Virus record (IMG/VR): IMGVR_UViG_3300031772_000140
Location: 1 to 35,516 of that record
Length of the DNA stretch: 35,516 nucleotides
Source: a virus
Direction: 5' to 3' (one strand)
Shown: one piece after another, positions 693 through 29,498 of the stretch
How the letters are laid out: every line of letters begins with the position of its first letter
How positions within the stretch are numbered: position 1 is the stretch's first letter
The notes under the pieces: model-generated
What the model was told of the DNA's origin: nothing
The model's database searches: none
Seen by the model: only the letters and a program-made list of their open reading frames with translations
Position numbers and translations under genes: made by a program

Positions 693-722
693 CGGGGTGA
701 AGGTCTGCCCCTCTTCTTAGCT
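693..722 (+). terminator. Hairpin followed by TTAGCT
   Basis: GGGGT (694-698) pairs with GCCCC (707-711) eight bases after the stop codon at 684. A pyrimidine run and TTAGCT (717-722) follow. This is one copy of a hairpin-TTAGCT unit found after several genes in the window. The stem is short, so termination may be partial. Confidence 0.45.
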
Positions 723-772
723 GCAAAATTGATCTCCTCCTTGGGTATAAGAATTGTAACCAAGAAAGGAGT
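717..772 (+). promoter_or_regulatory. Phage promoter and leader of gene 778-1239
   Basis: TTAGCT (717-722) runs straight into GCAAAA (723-728). After 17 bases comes TATAAG (746-751), then TAACC and AAGAAAGGAG before the ATG at 778. With TATAAG as the -10 box, transcription would begin near 758 and leave a leader of about 20 bases. It aligns closely with the modules at 26481 and 28701. Confidence 0.65.
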
Positions 773-1559: not shown

Positions 1560-2780
1560 TCAGTAGGGAGTAGCCTCCCCATACATCGGCAAGTTACTGT
1601 AACCCATGCCATAAGCCATGGGCTGAGAGGTCGCGGCCCCCAAAGCATTGGCCGCCGCCGGCAGACCCTTGGCCAGGCCGTAGGCTGAGCCTGCAAGGAT
1701 GCCACCAGTAGCTAATCCACCCAAAAGACTAGGACCTTTGCGGGGCTTGGCACCCTGCACGTCCTCAATCTCGGTCATCTTCTGCCCCTTCCGGGACAGC
1801 TTCCCGCTTGCTGCTGGAGGCCCTCCCACTGCCCCAGGAGCGGCCGGTGCACCACCAGGGGGTACGACGTGACCCGGAGCTGCTGCAACCCGTCCTGGGG
1901 CAGCCTGGGCTGCGGCCGCTACGGGTGGCAGGGGACGGAAGGTGGCCGCCTGTTCGGCGGTCGCCAGCTGCGGTCCGGGCTTGCCTTTGAAAACCTTCCC
2001 TACGCGCCTGCCGGCGGCCGCCACGTCCCGGGCTATCGGCTGGACAAAGCCGCGGTTGACCACGCCCGCAGCCCTACCAACATCATGAGCGATTGGCCGG
2101 ATGAAGTTGGCCATCGGGTTCCAAGCGTCCTTCTCCATCGCATGCTTGGAGAGCCCATGTTGCCGGCGGGTCTCATCGATCGAGGTGCCAGCTTCTAGCA
2201 GCTGACCCGGCTGCTGGTTGGAGTCGATCCCACGCCCCGCGGGTAGTTGGGGCAAGGACTGCTCTTGTGCGTCTGTGACCGCTGGCTCACGTTGGTTGTT
2301 CTCGGTCTGTGCCAGATCATTCAAGGCCGGACGCGCTCCGAACCGGTTGGCGATCGCCCCGGACAAGATCGCCCCCATGTCACCTTCGGCTGCCTGCTTC
2401 TCGATCGGCCGCACACGAGCATAATCTGGCATAGTACTGGATTTGACCCCCATCCGTTTGAGGCGGGCTCGTGTTTGGAACACCTTTTCTCGCCAGGCGT
2501 TATGACTGGCTTTAGTGCCCAGTCGTCCTACTTCAGCACTCGTTAGCTCCGGGTGCACGATGAGCGACTTAAGTACACGGAGACGTCGGCCCGCTTCTTG
2601 GCTGGCTCGTTCGAGTAGCTCCGGACTGAGCGCGGTCTTCTCCATCACCTGGTGAGCCATCAACTTGCTGGCGGTTTTTAAGAACTGGGTGCTGGCATCA
2701 TGTCGTGCCCGATCTCTACCGGCCCTGATGGCATCTTCCAAACCAACTGGAAGAACGCCACGTAGAGATTGAGAACTCAT
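1560..2780 (-). CDS. Gly/Ala/Pro-rich putative virion protein, 406 aa
   Basis: No family is recognised. The N-terminal 120 residues are helical and basic, with two K-T-A motifs (FLKTASK, MEKTALS) of the kind that recur in the head and tail proteins of this phage. The middle is rich in Q, P and charged residues. Two related phrases, FIRPIAHDVGRAAG and FVQPIARDVAAAG, look like a short internal duplication near residues 220-255. An Ala/Pro/Gly-rich linker follows, then a Gly/Ala-rich hydrophobic segment (SLLGGLATGGILAGSAYGLAKGL). The ATG at 2780 overlaps the stop of the tail tube gene as ATGA, which decides the start and points to coupled translation. It is the last gene of the minus-strand block, ahead of the terminator at 1463-1499. 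A minor structural or ejected protein is likely by context. Confidence 0.7.
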   Translation of the reverse strand: MSSQSLRGVLPVGLEDAIRAGRDRARHDASTQFLKTASKLMAHQVMEKTALSPELLERASQEAGRRLRVLKSLIVHPELTSAEVGRLGTKASHNAWREKVFQTRARLKRMGVKSSTMPDYARVRPIEKQAAEGDMGAILSGAIANRFGARPALNDLAQTENNQREPAVTDAQEQSLPQLPAGRGIDSNQQPGQLLEAGTSIDETRRQHGLSKHAMEKDAWNPMANFIRPIAHDVGRAAGVVNRGFVQPIARDVAAAGRRVGKVFKGKPGPQLATAEQAATFRPLPPVAAAAQAAPGRVAAAPGHVVPPGGAPAAPGAVGGPPAASGKLSRKGQKMTEIEDVQGAKPRKGPSLLGGLATGGILAGSAYGLAKGLPAAANALGAATSQPMAYGMGYSNLPMYGEATPY

Positions 2781-3752
2781 GGCGTGAGCACGCCCGCGGT
2801 CGAGCCCGTGATCAGCGAGAGCGCGGAGACGGCCACCGGCACACAGCGCTCGAACTGGATGGCCGCCGACTCCTGGATGATGACGCCCTGGCTGTCGGTT
2901 GCCCACGTGTGGTTCGGCACGTAGCAGGCCTCGAGGTAGACGGCCCCGACCGTGTCCTCGTTGCTGTCGCGCAGGTACAGCAGCATCCCGACCGGCTGGT
3001 TGAAGAGGTCGCTCGCGAGGTTTAGGAACAGGTTCTCGTACCCCGGTGGGATCTTCACATCGTGGGGGTTAGAGATCGAGCCTGCCCCGGCATTTGGGAA
3101 CACCGAGCTGATGACGGTCGGCGGAATCAGATCTTCGTAATAGGCGTAGAGCATGCGCAGGAGCGAAGGCCCGTGGTACATGATGCGGGCGATCGTCAGC
3201 TGCCCGATGGTGCGGCCGCTGATGAAGTACGACCGTTCGCTCCCGATCTCGAAGATGCGGTTGAACTGTCGGTTGTGGGAGAGGTTCAGGTTCTGAATCA
3301 CGCCTATGGGCATGACGATCTGATCTGCTCCCGCTCCTGCGAGCGCCCCGGCAGTCGCTGTGGCCCCACCGACATTGGCGAGCCGCGGCGGCCCGGCAGC
3401 CACCACTACGAACCCGGCCGAGAGGAACTGCAATCAGTTACGCAGGCTGTTTAGACCTGCTCTCCGAGTTTCCTCGGAGTGTCGGACTATATCTTCACCC
3501 CGTAGGGTGTCGGGCGCTCGTGGGGGCAATTATTGATCGCGCTTCTCATGCCCCTAGTCTCTGAACCTTCCGGGATACTCATTGCGCTTCTCCCGGTTTG
3601 GCTGCTGATTCCCACCGCCATAACGCGCTGAGGGTTCCAGCAATTCACCCGATGCACCTGATCAGTTACCCGATCAGGGGGCCAGTTTGACCATCAACCA
3701 TGCCGGCTTGCACGAACCGGTCATAGGGCGACCACTCAGAAAACTTGGCCAT
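2777..3752 (-). CDS. Tail tube protein, 244 aa, split by a group I intron
   Basis: The gene is in two pieces on the minus strand. Exon 1 spans 3752 to 3672 (27 codons, starting MAKFSEWSPYDRF) and exon 2 runs from 3430 to 2777. Removing 3431-3671 joins ATC to CAG in frame and gives GPLI-QFLSAGF. Without splicing, exon 1 stops two codons later at TAA, and exon 2 has TGA just upstream of its first possible start (TTG at 3433). The phrase IGSERSYFISGRTIGQ...ARIMYHGPSLLRMLYAYY resembles tail tube proteins of large myoviruses, and the gene lies just after the sheath gene, the usual order. Tube subunits stack into the hollow channel that carries DNA. The ATG at 3752 has AGAAGGAG upstream. The tube call rests on context and remembered similarity. 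The split is seen directly. Confidence 0.8.
3431..3671 (-). ncRNA. Self-splicing group I intron, 241 nt, no internal ORF
   Basis: Read on the minus strand, the four conserved group I elements appear in order: P (AATTGCTGGAACC, 3645-3633), Q (AATCAGCAGCC, 3610-3600), R (GGTTCAGAGACTA, 3567-3555) and S (AAGATATAGTCC, 3495-3484). GACTA in R pairs with TAGTC in S to form P7. Near the 5' end the intron carries AACTGATCAGG. GATCAGG can pair with exon end CCTGATC as P1, and AACTG with exon 2 start CAGTT as P10. A P9-type hairpin CTCCGAG-GAAA-CTCGGAG follows S. The last intron base is G, as expected. The 5' junction is less certain, because this choice gives C-G where most introns have U-G at the cut. 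Confidence 0.9.
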
Positions 3753-3946: not shown

Positions 3947-6900
3947 TCAGATTATCAGTGTAAGGCGAATAAAATTCGCCGGGTAGGGGATGTCGAGCGT
4001 GACGTCGACCAGTACGGTGTCAGGCGCGTCCTTGTCCTGGATGATGTTGTTGAGGTCCCCACCGATCAGAACCCCGGCTTCGGTCAGGAACGTGAGCTGG
4101 CCCTGGATGACGGTACTGAGGGTATCCAGGAACCCCTGGGTGATGTTGAACTTGCCAATGAAGTTTCTCAGACCCGCGCGCATGAATTTCGCGACGAAAT
4201 CTACGATCTTCGTAATGCTCAGCTCGCGCGTCTCGATGCTGGTGAGGTCGGTAGTCAGCTGATGCCTGCTGGTGAGCGGGCCGCCAGCCACCTCCTGAAT
4301 GACCCAGTAGGTACCGCCACCAGCACCAACCGCCATCTGCCGCTCACTGAAGCGGTCGTTACTGCCCACCACCCGCGTGAAGCCGGTCATCGGGAAGTTG
4401 GTGAACCCCTGCTGTGGCGGCTGCTGTCCAATCATGCCGGAGATCGCCGCGCACATGTAGAAACCAGGGATGAGTTGCTCGAGGCCCTGGATGGAAGCCC
4501 CACATTGGTCGGGGGCCACCATCACCAGGCGGCGGTCAAGATAGCTGCGTCCGAGGTCGGCGTAGGTTTCGGCGATCTCCTGCTTGCTGGTGATGACAGC
4601 TCCGCGCACCTTGATGTTGAAAGACTCCGAGATCAAGGTGCTCGGCAGGTTGGTCATGGAGTAGAAGCTGTCGTCATTTTCGCCCGGCGCGAACGTCACA
4701 CGCACGGTGATGTTGGTCCCCACGACCGTGGCCACGCTGTAACGCTTGCTGTCACTCGCGATGTCAAGGAACACGCCGTCCGCCACCGTGATCGTCCCCG
4801 AGGGGTCGACGCCGGCAGCCAGAAGCAGCGCAGCCAGATTCGAGAGCTTGGTGTCGAGCTCGTTGGTGACGCCCGTGCTGTCGGCGTCCGTTCCGCTTGC
4901 CACCAGCGTGTCGACCTTGCGCGCGGGCATCACGGGGTTGATGAGCGCAATACGCTCTCCCCGGCTATCGGGCTCACTCATGAAGTTGACGTGGGTCTGC
5001 CACATCTGGTGGATGACCGCCTCCTGCGTGAGAGGAGCGATGCCGTAGACCTCCTCGCTCTCCAGGAACGCGGCCGCCAGGCTGTAGGCCTCGAGCGTGC
5101 CGTAGGGGCTGTCATCGGTAACGGCGTCCACCCCGAGTCCACTGACCGTTACACCTGGGGAGTTGAGGAGCGCGAAGAACAGTCCCAACCCCAGAGGGTT
5201 GTCACTGGTGATCGGCTCCATCGCAGTAGTCAGTTCGGTCGTGCTCTCGAAAGTCAAGAGCGCGGGGTTGGCGGCTGAGGCCGTCACGTCCAGGCGCAAG
5301 GCCTTGTACGTCAGCATCAGGGGGTTGGCCGCCATCGAAACTGGAAGACCACGAGTGTCGCGCAGGATGTCCTGTTTGATCGTGACGTTGCCCGCGAGGT
5401 CCACTACCATGTCCGGACGCGGCCGGCTGGCTGGCAGGCTGCTGGCAATCTTCTTGGCCTGGATGTAGAAGCTGCGCTTCTTGAACGTCAAGAACGCCTG
5501 CTGAGTGTCCAGTCGCAGGTCAGTCGGCACTCCACCTGGAGAGACCTGCACGATCGTCCCGACGTACTCGCCCTCGGCGTAAAGGGCATCGCCCTCCTTG
5601 GGCTTGAACGCCCGGCCATTGATCGTCTGCAGGGCAACGAAGCCGAAGGTAGTGTTAGCCGTCCCACTACCGACCTCAATCTTGGATTCCTCACCGAGCT
5701 TGGTGGAGGCCAGCACCAGCTTGTTGGCAGCGACCGAAGCGAAACCCGCGCCCATGGTCGTGTTGATGGCGGTCGTCAGCTCCGACTGCGTCATCCACTG
5801 GTAGATGTCCGCGATGCCAGTGAAGCCGATGGCGGCAAACGCCGTGCTGGTGACATCCACCCAGATGATCCCGCCAGCATCAGTCGCCCCACCCACCTGA
5901 AAGCTGATGTACGTGCCGGTCGTCGGCTGGCTGACGCCCAGGTTGTTCGAGCGGTAGCAGACCGGCTGTCCGATGGCGGCGTTGATCGCGTTGATGGCCG
6001 CCACGATGTCGGCGGGCGTAGCGAACGTCACGGTGTAGAGCGTGCCGTTGACGTTGAGCTTCAAGTTGTTCGTGCCCGGAGAGCTGTAGGCATTGGTCGG
6101 AATGATTGGGCCGCCATTGAAAGTCACGGTCTGGGGGTCGAAACCATCCACCTGCACGATGAAGGTTTTGCGATGGACGTAGATAGTGGAGGCCGGGAGC
6201 GTGGTGGTGCCGGTCATGCTGGCAGCCGTCGGGTCCAGCCCAAAATCCTCCGACGGGAAGCGAACGAGCGGGCTGCGGGTGTCACCGTTGCCGTCATCCA
6301 CGCCGTACAGGACGTAGCCTTCGCTGCTGGATGTCAGGCCCAGGATGGTGTTGGCCGTGCCGGTCCCCACCATGATGTAGCCCTTCTGGCTCTGAAGCTT
6401 GAGACGGTTGGAGCCACCATCATAGGCGTAGGTGCCATTGAGCACGCTATTGATCTTGTAGAGCAGGGAGTCGCTCATCCCGCCCTGGCCGGCAGTGAAG
6501 CCGATCGTGGTCCAAGCAGTCGAGCCGGTCTCCACCAGGCGAATGTGGTCGCCGGTAGCGGTTCCACCACCGACCTGGAAGCTGATATAGGTGCCTGCGA
6601 CATCAGCGGTACCGTCAACCAGCGAGCGGTAGGCGATGGTCTCACCAAACTGGGTATTGATGGCGGTGATGGCATCAGCGATCGAAGCCGGGGTCGCAAA
6701 CGTGATGGTGACAGGCGCGAGGTTGTTCTTCTGCGCCACCAGCGCGTTGGTTCCGACTGCGCTGTAGGCATTGCCTGGGGTCACGCGCGTGCCCTCGAGC
6801 GCGAACATCTCGCCCGGGAACAGAATCGTCTGCTCGGCCGCGCCCATCTCGGTCGTGACCTTCAGGGTCGTGTTTTTCAACGTGGTCGTGGGGAACGTGA

Positions 6901-7597
6901 TCGTGGTCCCCAGCAGGAACGACATGATGCCGTTACGAAGGAAGGTCTCGTCGCGCTTGACCTCCTTCAGGACGCTGCCGGTGTTGATGAACGCCCTGAT
7001 GCTGTCTTCCTGGATGTCGATCTCTGCAATGTTCCCGCGCGGATCTGGGAATGACAGCTGGTCAGCATAGACCTTGTCCTGCTTGTAGGTCGACAGCCCG
7101 AAGGCCGTGTACCAGGGGGCGAAGCCGAGAGCGGTGTTGGCCGTGCCGTCCAGAATCTGGAGAGTCTGGCCATCACCCTTGGTCGTGCCCTTGAGCAGGA
7201 GATAGATGCTGGCCCCGATTGTGACGGTGTAGGCCGTCCAACCGGAGGGCAACGAGCTCAGAATCTGAGCCTTCACCTGATCCGCAGTCAGATTCACGGA
7301 CGTTGGGTCCGCGAACGTGACTTCCTGGGCCGTACCGCCATTCAGGCTGACCTTCAGCGTCAGGCCATCGAGCCCGACATATGGCTGGGCAAGGCCAGCC
7401 ATCAGCACCGGCGGCATGCTGACAACGGCGTCGGTGTTGGCGACGTTGTTGCCAGAGGCATCCTGCTTGTAGGCCTCTACCAGCTGGAACGCAGGGCCGA
7501 CAATCGCCGGGACCAGTGTTGGCTGCACGATCGTGGGGCTGACCGTGCGGAACTGCTGGATGATGGAAATGCCTGGACGGGGAAGCTCGTTGGCCAT
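3947..7597 (-). CDS. Tail sheath protein with repeated inserted domains, 1216 aa
   Basis: This is the contractile tail sheath subunit. The C-terminal part (about residues 1000-1216) carries the typical sheath layout: LDRRLVMVAPDQ, a GFYMCAAISGMIG helix, a GGTYWVIQEVAGGPLTSRHQLTTD segment, and a final region with FNITQGFLDTL and a polar C-terminus. The N-terminus (PRPGISIIQQFRTVSPT) also suits sheath proteins. At 1216 residues it is about twice the length of T4 gp18. The excess comes from related segments ending in GTANT at residues 151, 413 and 646. Two of these also share NAYS.xGTN (276, 502) and GTYISFQVGG (335, 561). The insert domains are probably on the sheath surface. AGAGGAG precedes the ATG, which directly follows the stop of the gene before it. 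The tube gene lies downstream. Confidence 0.92.
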   Translation of the reverse strand: MANELPRPGISIIQQFRTVSPTIVQPTLVPAIVGPAFQLVEAYKQDASGNNVANTDAVVSMPPVLMAGLAQPYVGLDGLTLKVSLNGGTAQEVTFADPTSVNLTADQVKAQILSSLPSGWTAYTVTIGASIYLLLKGTTKGDGQTLQILDGTANTALGFAPWYTAFGLSTYKQDKVYADQLSFPDPRGNIAEIDIQEDSIRAFINTGSVLKEVKRDETFLRNGIMSFLLGTTITFPTTTLKNTTLKVTTEMGAAEQTILFPGEMFALEGTRVTPGNAYSAVGTNALVAQKNNLAPVTITFATPASIADAITAINTQFGETIAYRSLVDGTADVAGTYISFQVGGGTATGDHIRLVETGSTAWTTIGFTAGQGGMSDSLLYKINSVLNGTYAYDGGSNRLKLQSQKGYIMVGTGTANTILGLTSSSEGYVLYGVDDGNGDTRSPLVRFPSEDFGLDPTAASMTGTTTLPASTIYVHRKTFIVQVDGFDPQTVTFNGGPIIPTNAYSSPGTNNLKLNVNGTLYTVTFATPADIVAAINAINAAIGQPVCYRSNNLGVSQPTTGTYISFQVGGATDAGGIIWVDVTSTAFAAIGFTGIADIYQWMTQSELTTAINTTMGAGFASVAANKLVLASTKLGEESKIEVGSGTANTTFGFVALQTINGRAFKPKEGDALYAEGEYVGTIVQVSPGGVPTDLRLDTQQAFLTFKKRSFYIQAKKIASSLPASRPRPDMVVDLAGNVTIKQDILRDTRGLPVSMAANPLMLTYKALRLDVTASAANPALLTFESTTELTTAMEPITSDNPLGLGLFFALLNSPGVTVSGLGVDAVTDDSPYGTLEAYSLAAAFLESEEVYGIAPLTQEAVIHQMWQTHVNFMSEPDSRGERIALINPVMPARKVDTLVASGTDADSTGVTNELDTKLSNLAALLLAAGVDPSGTITVADGVFLDIASDSKRYSVATVVGTNITVRVTFAPGENDDSFYSMTNLPSTLISESFNIKVRGAVITSKQEIAETYADLGRSYLDRRLVMVAPDQCGASIQGLEQLIPGFYMCAAISGMIGQQPPQQGFTNFPMTGFTRVVGSNDRFSERQMAVGAGGGTYWVIQEVAGGPLTSRHQLTTDLTSIETRELSITKIVDFVAKFMRAGLRNFIGKFNITQGFLDTLSTVIQGQLTFLTEAGVLIGGDLNNIIQDKDAPDTVLVDVTLDIPYPANFIRLTLII

Positions 7598-26819: not shown

Positions 26820-26855
26820 GTTCCCTGGGTCCTCCAGGTCGAACTTTTCTTAGCT
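26820..26855. terminator. Convergent hairpin-TTAGCT between gene 26542 and terminase
   Basis: GTTC (26820-26823) pairs with GAAC (26841-26844), and CCTGG (26824-26828) pairs with CCAGG (26834-26838), with TC bulged. TTTTCTTAGCT follows on the plus strand. TTAGCT (26850-26855) overlaps the terminase stop codon. Confidence 0.65.
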
Positions 26856-28704
26856 AGTGCCGGCGACGGGGTTGGTAGTCCTCGCCCGTGTCTTTCAACG
26901 GCGCGATGATGTCAGGCCGTGGGTACTTGATCATGGATGCCAAGAAACAGTACAGGATGCTGTGGAAAGTATCATCGGTAGACCCGGGCGAATGATTGTA
27001 GATGGTCATGCGCAGTTGTTTGCTGTACTCGCTGAAGATGTTGAGGATGTCCTGTCCGTAGGGCTCGAAGAAGTCATCCCAATTCGGCAGTGCGATCTGC
27101 TTGCGCACGAGCGCGTTGAATACATCGCTCATGACTTCTGTACGGTGACACATGAAGCGGCGAAGCGTGGGCTGCCAGACGACCTTCCCCTTCTTTTGAT
27201 TGGCGTTGTATTGGAACTTGAGGATCTTCTGTGGACCGAAGGCACGCATGAGATGATCGTTGCGATCGAAGCCGCCACCATAATCGCAGCCACAAAGCTG
27301 GATGTTGTAACGCGATAGGATATTGCAAATACGTTCCAATTGCTTTGGCGGTTCTAGATCTTCGCCCACGAAACGGTGAGACCAAAAGACAGTGAATGCG
27401 CCCGTCCCGAAGTACGTGCCCAGTGAGATGACAGTGTAAGCCTGTTCGCCGCTTCCCCAATCAATACCGGCAAAGATGTCTTGGCTATGTGCAAATTTCG
27501 TAAAGTGTTCGAAGTCTCCGAGTCGGATCTCTTCGCGGCAACAGGCTTTCAATTGCCCACGAGTGATGGGGCGCGTGCCGCTATCGTAACTGCGCCCAAA
27601 GACCTCGTTGTTAAGCTTCTGCCTGGAGTAGCGCTTCTGCTTTTCTAGCAGGCCCCGCCATCCTTCTGGCGTCTTTACTACCCATGGCACCATCAACTGA
27701 CTGATATGATAGCCCTCGAATGTGACCTTAGATTTGTTGTTCTCGGTCACTGGGTTCATGGCTGTCCATGCAGCGTCTGGGTGGTAGACCTCAATCGGCT
27801 GATGGCAACGATCACAGATGAGACCATCGGTACCGATGTTGTCCTCTCCCAGGACATTCCAATGCCAAGACCCCTTGTCCCCGGGTGTCCCATGGTGCTC
27901 ACACGGGACTACCCATTCATTCTGGGTAGAGAAGTTCGCCCAATAGTATTCGATCGTATTGTCCAAGCTCTTAGGCGTGCCAGAATAGTTGAAAATCTTC
28001 CAGTCGCTATGGCTTGCACATTCTTCAATGACGGGAATGTTGTCGACCAGAATGTCTTGGATCTCATCAATGTCGATCAGGTCAGATGGAATACCTCTTA
28101 CTCTATCCGCGGTAAGGTAGGCGTAGCGGAGTCGGATCTGAGAGTAGTTGATGAACTTCTTGTGGAAAACAGCGTTTGTGAGCTTGGTGTTGGTGTATGC
28201 CTGGACGACCGGGCTCATGCTGATAGGATCAGCGAGACGATCGTTAGAGAACACCTTCGTCTGCTCTGACGAGGGACTGACATACAGGCTCTTGAAGTAG
28301 TTAATGAGACAACTGTAGGCCAGCAGCTTGTTACCTAACGTGGTCGATTTTTCAACCTGTCTGCCCGCCAGCAGCAAAGTCTTTCGTTCACTGGTGTCGT
28401 AGATACGACGCAGGTATGGACGCGGACCAAAATTGAAATTGTCGACCGAGCCCTTGTCCGCGATCTTGATTGCGGTCTCCGCGAATTCAGATGGAGCGAC
28501 ATTGTAGATGTAGTCTAGACGAGCTTCGGTCTCCTCCACGTCATCGGGGTCATGATCGATCCCAAAGTCTTGTGGTTCACCTTCATCGTTAAAATCATAG
28601 AACGGCTCGGTGTAAACTTTGCCGTCCACGAGCTGTCGCGCGAGGGAGACCGGCATATCGATCTCAGTTTTTCGAGCACGAACGCGGCGAAGGTCGACTA
28701 GCAA
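26854..28704 (-). CDS. Terminase large subunit, about 616 aa
   Basis: This is the DNA-packaging motor: an ATPase followed by an RNase-H-like nuclease. Walker A is LLLAGRQVEKSTT near residues 111-123 and Walker B is LIDIDEIQD near 209-217. A zinc-like cluster (PCEHH...ICDRC) lies near 267-300. The nuclease acidic residues are in FAGIDWGSG (D415), CGCDYGGG (D474) and STDDTFH (D577/578). Length and order are normal. Glu in GRQVEKST replaces the usual Gly, and I recall this from terminases of other large phages. The start is uncertain. TTG at 28704 lies inside the A-rich block of a divergent promoter, while ATG at 28656 would give a protein 16 residues shorter. The small subunit is not certain nearby. 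Confidence 0.93.
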   Translation of the reverse strand: MLVDLRRVRARKTEIDMPVSLARQLVDGKVYTEPFYDFNDEGEPQDFGIDHDPDDVEETEARLDYIYNVAPSEFAETAIKIADKGSVDNFNFGPRPYLRRIYDTSERKTLLLAGRQVEKSTTLGNKLLAYSCLINYFKSLYVSPSSEQTKVFSNDRLADPISMSPVVQAYTNTKLTNAVFHKKFINYSQIRLRYAYLTADRVRGIPSDLIDIDEIQDILVDNIPVIEECASHSDWKIFNYSGTPKSLDNTIEYYWANFSTQNEWVVPCEHHGTPGDKGSWHWNVLGEDNIGTDGLICDRCHQPIEVYHPDAAWTAMNPVTENNKSKVTFEGYHISQLMVPWVVKTPEGWRGLLEKQKRYSRQKLNNEVFGRSYDSGTRPITRGQLKACCREEIRLGDFEHFTKFAHSQDIFAGIDWGSGEQAYTVISLGTYFGTGAFTVFWSHRFVGEDLEPPKQLERICNILSRYNIQLCGCDYGGGFDRNDHLMRAFGPQKILKFQYNANQKKGKVVWQPTLRRFMCHRTEVMSDVFNALVRKQIALPNWDDFFEPYGQDILNIFSEYSKQLRMTIYNHSPGSTDDTFHSILYCFLASMIKYPRPDIIAPLKDTGEDYQPRRRH

Positions 28705-28729
28705 AACAAGTACCTGTCCTTGGTATAAG
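28701..28729 (+). promoter_or_regulatory. Phage promoter for the structured RNA, divergent from terminase
   Basis: GCAAAAC at 28701-28707 and TATAAG at 28724-28729 are 17 bases apart, as in the promoter at 723-751. CCTTGGTATAAGGA matches CCTTGGGTATAAGA there. No ribosome site or open frame follows, unlike every other copy. Transcription would start near 28736, which is exactly where the first stem of the RNA begins. Confidence 0.7.
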
Positions 28730-28735
28730 GAAGAA

Positions 28736-29050
28736 AGCAGGGAAGGCTGTAGCTAGCCCTCTGCAGTCGCCACCGAGGGCGTCGGTCTCGCCTCGGTCGA
28801 GGAGATTCTAGTTGGGTGTAACCCTTCATCCGAGTCTCCAACACCGATCAACCGGCAGCCGTAGGTGAGTTTCAAGTACCAAGAAGCTGCTTTGACTCCC
28901 CCTTGGCCAACCGGCAAAGGAGCAAGGGACGTGAGCAGGTAGCAGGTGGGTGCTGTTTTCGAGGACTTCTAGTTGTGCGACCAACTAGATCGTCCACCCT
29001 GCTATCTGCCGTCCGCCAATATCGAGGCGGCCTTAGGCCGCCTCTAACTT
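28736..29050 (+). ncRNA. Highly structured noncoding RNA, about 315 nt, unrecognised
   Basis: No open frame is supported. Stems seen: I, 28737-28764, 10 bp with an AA bulge. II, 28772-28797, ACCGAGG with CCTCGGT plus two more pairs. III, GGAGATTC (28801-28808) with GAGTCTCC (28832-28839), enclosing GGGT-GTA-ACCC. IV, GAGT..CAAG (28867-28876) with TTTG-ACTC (28891-28898). Next, CCCTTG (28900-28905) with CAAGGG (28923-28928). V, a 15-bp helix of 28935-28949 with 28994-29009, with one bulged base, capped by CTAGTTG/CAACTAG. Last, the end hairpin at 29024-29044. At least four stems use G-U pairs when read as plus strand. These become A-C mismatches on the minus strand, so plus-strand transcription is favoured. 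It does not match RNase P, tmRNA, 6S, group I or group II RNAs that I know. Confidence 0.75.
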
Positions 29051-29054
29051 AGCT
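29024..29054 (+). terminator. End hairpin of the structured RNA, followed by TTAGCT
   Basis: GAGGCGGCC (29024-29032) pairs perfectly with GGCCGCCTC (29036-29044), then TAACTTAGCT. It is the same hairpin-TTAGCT unit that closes the protein-coding units. TTAGCT at 29049-29054 overlaps the stop of the convergent gene 29049-29498. Confidence 0.65.
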
Positions 29055-29498
29055 AGCTAGCCCATTTCCTTTAGCTAGCCCCTCTCCTACCTTTCGATCC
29101 AAGATCTCCGCAAAACGGCGAAAGGTGTCTTCGTTCGGTGGCAGTGGTCTCCTATTGATCGCAGGGATCGTAACACAGTAGCTATCGACCTCCTGGATGA
29201 ACTCCACTAGCGGCTTAACTGAGGGATAGCTCTCCTCTGCAGCCGACAACACATCCAGGCCGAAGAACCCACCACCCCAGTATTCGGTCGCCACCATCGG
29301 GCCCGGCCACACGTGGTAGAGGAGGTCACCCTCCTTCTCCAGGTACTTTACAATCACGCAGTCGGACTCCAGTAGGGGGACAGCCACTACGACTGCCTTC
29401 TCCACGTCCGAGACCTTAGCATCACCAGCTTGCGCGACCTTCGCTACAACCTCCCGCTCTTCATCGCTGATGAATGCGGGCTTGGGAAGATCATTCAT
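29049..29498 (-). CDS. Hypothetical protein, 149 aa
   Basis: This is a mixed alpha/beta protein without a recognised family. A helical N-terminus (ISDEEREVVAKVAQAGDAKVSDVEKAVVVAVPLL) is followed by strands (DCVIVKYLEKEGDLLYHVWPGPMVATEYWGGGFFGLDVL) and a helical end (NEDTFRRFAEILDRKVGEGLAKG). It lies between the gene 29514-30395 and the structured RNA locus. GGAGG sets the start. A packaging accessory role is conceivable from position, but nothing in the sequence shows it. Its stop codon is inside a TTAGCTAGCTAG run belonging to the opposing RNA gene's end. Confidence 0.7.
   Translation of the reverse strand: MNDLPKPAFISDEEREVVAKVAQAGDAKVSDVEKAVVVAVPLLESDCVIVKYLEKEGDLLYHVWPGPMVATEYWGGGFFGLDVLSAAEESYPSVKPLVEFIQEVDSYCVTIPAINRRPLPPNEDTFRRFAEILDRKVGEGLAKGNGLAS

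Follow-up and report, generated by a model that had tools for sequence, protein, structure and literature searches.

Phage P22 carries sar, a short antisense RNA that lies between arc and ant and covers the ribosome-binding site of its target. The RNA predicted here, beside the terminase gene of an uncultivated virus, resembles sar in being an antisense transcription unit within an intercistronic gap, but it is ~315 nt long, would start upstream of the Shine-Dalgarno sequence, and has a conserved internal motif. The phi29 pRNA is essential, belongs to the reduced motor of phi29, and has been called unique to those phages (PMC11476376). Like the 174-nt pRNA, ours is a phage-borne noncoding RNA in the range of a few hundred nucleotides or less; however, it accompanies a full-length gpA-type terminase rather than a short phi29-type ATPase, and there are lineages without it. 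The abundant noncoding RNA of ICP1, ~800 nt, is comparable to the GOLLD and ROOL RNAs, which are often found near tRNA genes, and one GOLLD RNA is reported to be dispensable for phage production (PMC7567579). These are also phage noncoding RNAs whose role is unassigned, and the dispensability of that GOLLD RNA resembles what the losses described below suggest, whereas the terL-side RNA is predicted to be ~315 nt and matches neither the GOLLD and ROOL models nor Rfam. Finally, RNA-seq of phage K revealed small antisense and intergenic RNAs of ~45-500 nt (PMC9241854), similar in location and size to the present case, although the portion of that report considered here describes no family or structure and no link to terL. 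Because their sequences diverge, phage noncoding RNAs are easily missed, and the literature searched contained no description of a terL-linked structured RNA.

A predicted transcription unit antisense to terL and P1

The window analyzed is a 35,516-nt stretch of viral DNA (positions 1 to 35,516 of IMG/VR record IMGVR_UViG_3300031772_000140). The features of the locus are:

26854..28704, minus strand: TerL, large terminase subunit, 616 aa (phrog_675, E 2e-58; GpA_ATPase, E 4e-7)
28701..28729, plus strand: phage promoter, with AAAA at 28703-28706 and the GGTATAAG box at 28722-28729; overlaps the TerL start region on the opposite strand
28736..29050, plus strand: predicted noncoding RNA, ~315 nt (promoter-to-terminator interval, fold z -4.5, layout kept in relatives)
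28737..28764, plus strand: stem I, from the predicted +1; its loop contains UAGCY (folds; motif count)
28793..28848, plus strand: conserved core, two covarying stems flanking the internal loop UCUAGYUG / UYCAUCCGA (covariation, 8 sequences)
28935..29009, plus strand: long 3' hairpin with a 15-bp closing helix, 28935-28949 with 28994-29009 (fold)
29024..29054, plus strand: terminator, 9-bp GC hairpin plus TAACTTAGCT; overlaps the P1 stop codon on the opposite strand
29049..29498, minus strand: P1, conserved orphan protein of 149 aa

TerL is full length, matching positions 20-548 of the 576 in phrog_675. P1 has no match in Pfam, PHROG, or NCBIfam and no confident fold match, and structure comparison of the upstream protein gave no confident match. 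The gap between the two genes (28705-29048) holds a plus-strand unit antisense to both, consisting in order of a promoter, ~315 bases without a supported open reading frame, the 9-bp GC hairpin, and TAACTTAGCT.

The original prediction, made from the sequence of the window, was of a noncoding RNA gene, not recognized before, that has a phage promoter and a terminator to itself, and every element that it named was found where it had been placed: the GCAAAAC-17-TATAAG promoter at 28701-28729, which occurs once in the window and in 0 of 100 shuffles; the 15-bp helix with its single bulge, which also contains one G-U pair; and a perfect 9-bp hairpin, GAGGCGGCC-TTA-GGCCGCCTC, at 29024-29044, followed by TAACTTAGCT. 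As anticipated, no open frame in the unit is supported, and none is conserved across copies. The remark that the RNA resembles no familiar class also held when checked against Rfam, with 0 of 4227 families reaching the gathering threshold, and a permissive Rfam search of the window returned chance-level matches only. ARAGORN reported no tRNA or tmRNA at the unit, and sequence searches of isolate phages and plasmids found no homologous noncoding RNA.

A group I intron was considered for the unit and rejected, since the only Rfam match lies away from it, at 3462-3705 of the window. This match (RF00028, 82 bits, minus strand) falls between 3947-7597 and 2777-3433, near the start of a short open reading frame at ~3752.

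The promoter recurs. In 24 distinct copies, comprising the window and relatives from uncultivated phages, it has the form RAA-N16-GGTATAAG and is located at the start of TerL in every case. When the 24 copies are aligned, AA at -31/-30 and G-G-T-A-T-A-A-G at -13 to -6 are near-invariant and the sequence of the spacer is unconserved. In five related contigs GGTATAAG is present 38 times versus 9 times for the reversed pattern, and about half of the inspected boxes are followed, 25-45 nt downstream, by a Shine-Dalgarno sequence and start codon. Within the window, the gene at 778 and genes in the 24.1-24.6 kb region, all on the plus strand, also have the box ahead of them. Apart from the RNA unit, reverse-oriented box units are present in the late region at 751, 24085, and 24583.

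The terminator across copies is a GC hairpin followed by TTAGCY, and a terminal hairpin is present in all units read. The same hairpin plus TTAGCT (site 1269) ends the plus-strand gene at 778-1239. Several hairpin-TTAGCT sites, 9 found versus 3.5 expected, look like a phage-wide terminator signature.

Three observations on these signals stand apart from the unit. The gene at 778-1239 is framed by a box (window 717-750) and a hairpin-TTAGCT (1247-1275), as the RNA unit is. In the genome of L094, a possible second noncoding unit from the same promoter is located at L142 208-320 (reverse complement), where a box, a hairpin with a GGUACC loop, a GC hairpin, and CTTTCTTAGCTC are followed by another box. 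In G008, the bacterial assembly of L064 (a possible host), GGTATAAG is rarer than the reversed pattern (18 versus 85), a bias opposite to that of the phage contigs.

Presence and absence among relatives

TerL searches of IMG/VR showed that the same slot is carried by relatives with TerL identities from 100% down to ~58%, and that the unit occurs through both main branches of the TerL tree. The P1/TerL gap is kept, with a distance from box to P1 stop of 142-395 nt, while the RNA sequences are mostly unalignable outside subgroups. The original prediction had made conservation in relatives that keep terminase a test of the gene. This was borne out in most of them, but five (L039, L060, L064, L083, and L114) retain the terminase and lack the unit at this site. 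P1 and TerL abut or nearly so in the first four of these, and in L114 a different ORF is followed by an AT-rich gap of ~60 nt. Because L060, L064, L083, and L114 sit among carriers, at least three losses are suggested; L039 is basal in its branch, and its absence could be ancestral. Together, the relatives without the unit and the at least three apparent losses argue that the RNA is dispensable and that terminase works without it. L121 has a gene of the endonuclease VII family inserted between TerL and the unit, which still adjoins P1; thus, the unit is independent of adjacency to TerL.

Several TerL genes contain in-frame or split insertions (L121:1249-4191, L114:1852-5526, L009, L018, L060, L064, L098, and L101), at sites close to residues 120, 210, and 427 in the window TerL. 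In L121 and L114 the gene stays open as a single long ORF, suggestive of inteins; for the other six, the insertions may be inteins or introns.

The suggestion that the unit is part of the packaging machinery, a structural RNA that, like phi29 pRNA, forms part of the DNA-packaging motor, has to be weighed against this distribution. The unit adjoins terL, and its structure is kept while its sequence diverges, both of which speak for this role. Yet the five relatives above have a homologous TerL and no unit at the site, no Rfam family matches, phi29 pRNA included, and TerL is full length, whereas pRNA belongs with the reduced phi29 motor (PMC11476376). Given that relatives do without the RNA and that TerL is full length, we consider this role, which the original prediction had listed, unlikely. 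It would mean that an RNA, structural or regulatory, serves a full-length gpA-type terminase module outside the phi29 group, and that the losing lineages have replaced it with a protein or moved it, which is an equally unlikely arrangement.

Conserved structure and assignment of the strand

When the first 60 nt are folded, pairing starts 1-12 nt after the box in 24/24 RNAs; as read from the folds, the start of the main stem I is usually 6-9 nt from the box. The motif UA[GC]CY is located 18-24 nt after the box in 16/24 RNAs versus 1.1 expected; because it also occurs in 5/23 other box leaders (0.7 expected), it may in part be common to leaders in general. Many relatives have long hairpins of unrelated sequence ahead of the terminator.

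The conserved core was analyzed in group A (the window, L003-L006, L008, L009, and L092). Pairing in these 8 sequences was 88.6% versus 71.1% after shuffling, with 18 double changes versus 6.9 and a covariation of 0.516 versus 0.196, values reached by 0/500 shuffles. Every slid control was lower, but the structure was chosen by hand on the same 8 sequences, which biases this comparison in its favor. By these counts, covariation of the sort that the original prediction proposed to look for is found, in the group A core only. A covariance model, R1, gave a single strong match in each genome, every one of them at terL on the antisense strand; R1 was built from group A sequences, and the only match outside training by sequence, L018, is ~96% identical to L009. 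In IMG/VR scans, DNA patterns of the group A motif matched only at these loci.

These data bear on whether the locus could be a foldable stretch of intergenic DNA, or a relic, without function. Fast sequence divergence and absence from some relatives would be expected of such DNA. Conservation of promoter, first stem, motif, and terminator down to ~58% TerL identity, together with the covariation, would not, and we regard a chance or relic origin as extremely unlikely.

In the window, the unit folds better than chance on the plus strand (z -4.5, 0/100 shuffles) and just as well on the minus strand (z -4.3), so the strand cannot be read from folding alone. The G-U pairs in four stems, described in the original prediction as working only on the plus strand, turned out not to be decisive: among the 1x1 mismatches in Watson-Crick-only folds of 23 RNAs there were 18 G.U versus 16 A.C. 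Over the related RNAs, the plus-minus difference in folding has a Stouffer z of ~-4.2 for sequences that are not independent and is negative in 14/24; some relatives fold better on the minus strand. Terminal loops are GNRA on the plus strand in 12/26 printed rows and on the minus strand in one (L085), with the script having chosen a different hairpin for several loci, and UNCG terminal loops were read by eye in L004, L005, and L092. We assign the RNA to the plus strand because of the recurrent promoter, the first stem near +1, the plus-strand GNRA terminal loops, and the aggregate fold difference. This assignment rests mainly on the promoter and terminator.

A minus-strand leader had been favored at first, from a reading of the conserved motif and of CTTATAC along the strand of TerL, and was dropped because CTTATAC is the reverse complement of the promoter box that precedes plus-strand genes. 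Under this explanation the structured element would belong to the leader of a TerL-sense transcript and the plus-strand box would be a coincidence. The equal folding of the minus strand in the window, its better folding in several relatives, and inner-stem A.C mismatches in L005 and L008 that become G.U on the minus strand are all consistent with a leader. However, the box is recurrent and upstream of plus-strand genes, the first stem is near the plus-strand +1, GNRA terminator loops are frequent on plus and occur once on minus, and L121 has a gene between the element and TerL, making a leader very unlikely.

The existence of a predicted autonomous noncoding unit at 28736-29050 of the plus strand is strongly supported. 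Of the features that mark an autonomous phage noncoding RNA, it has its own phage-type promoter and terminator and, in subgroup A only, a conserved structure with covariation. Promoter recurrence, layout, and covariation come from comparison of the copies; transcription itself we infer. The comparative data thus support the original prediction of an undescribed gene, and the predicted RNA gene would found an undescribed family in uncultivated bacterial viruses.

Possible roles of the RNA

The best explanation, to which we give a probability of roughly 50%, is an autonomous phage RNA gene that most likely encodes a trans-acting accessory RNA. The RNA would be transcribed from the phage RAA-N16-GGTATAAG promoter, and its fold would comprise a hairpin near +1 at the 5' end, a middle domain that varies and in subgroup A would carry the conserved internal-loop motif, a long 3' hairpin, and the hairpin-TTAGCY terminator. 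Its gene would be carried like a moron, reverse-oriented among the late genes, and the RNA would act in trans by way of its folded structure and its conserved loops; it might, for instance, bind a protein of the host or the phage. The conserved loops, the dispensability, and the independence from TerL adjacency favor this reading. A search of the window for a trans target by complementarity gave a longest match of 14 nt, with a shuffled maximum of 14. That every carrier has the RNA in one and the same place may point to a role at terL itself, which counts against action in trans. A host-RNA mimic and a defence decoy, also suggested in the original prediction, may be further roles.

It is this position that makes a cis-antisense regulator, also among the roles originally suggested, the main rival. 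The RNA would act on the P1-TerL intercistronic mRNA, lowering or delaying expression of TerL and downstream genes through base pairing, cleavage by RNase III, or interference with transcription, like P22 sar RNA. By position it is complementary to the intercistronic region over its full length, although the joint P1-TerL mRNA is itself a presumed transcript, and it has the same place and orientation in every carrier found, L121 included. That both strands fold well with balanced G.U and A.C is also as expected if sense and antisense RNAs both fold. On the other hand, the predicted +1 at 28736 is upstream of the likely TerL Shine-Dalgarno sequence (~28713-28721), leaving the ribosome-binding site uncovered. 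Furthermore, relatives dispense with the RNA, other reverse-oriented box units are located away from terL, and antisense pairing leaves unexplained both the invariant internal loop between covarying stems and the conserved loop of stem I. We treat regulation of terminase in cis as possible but less likely, and retain the trans-acting accessory RNA as the preferred reading.

The fixed slot, the phage promoter, and the terminator signature track the RNA across the clade where sequence search fails. The locus thereby provides a defined, testable RNA gene, and with the same promoter/terminator signature further noncoding units of these phages can be uncovered.
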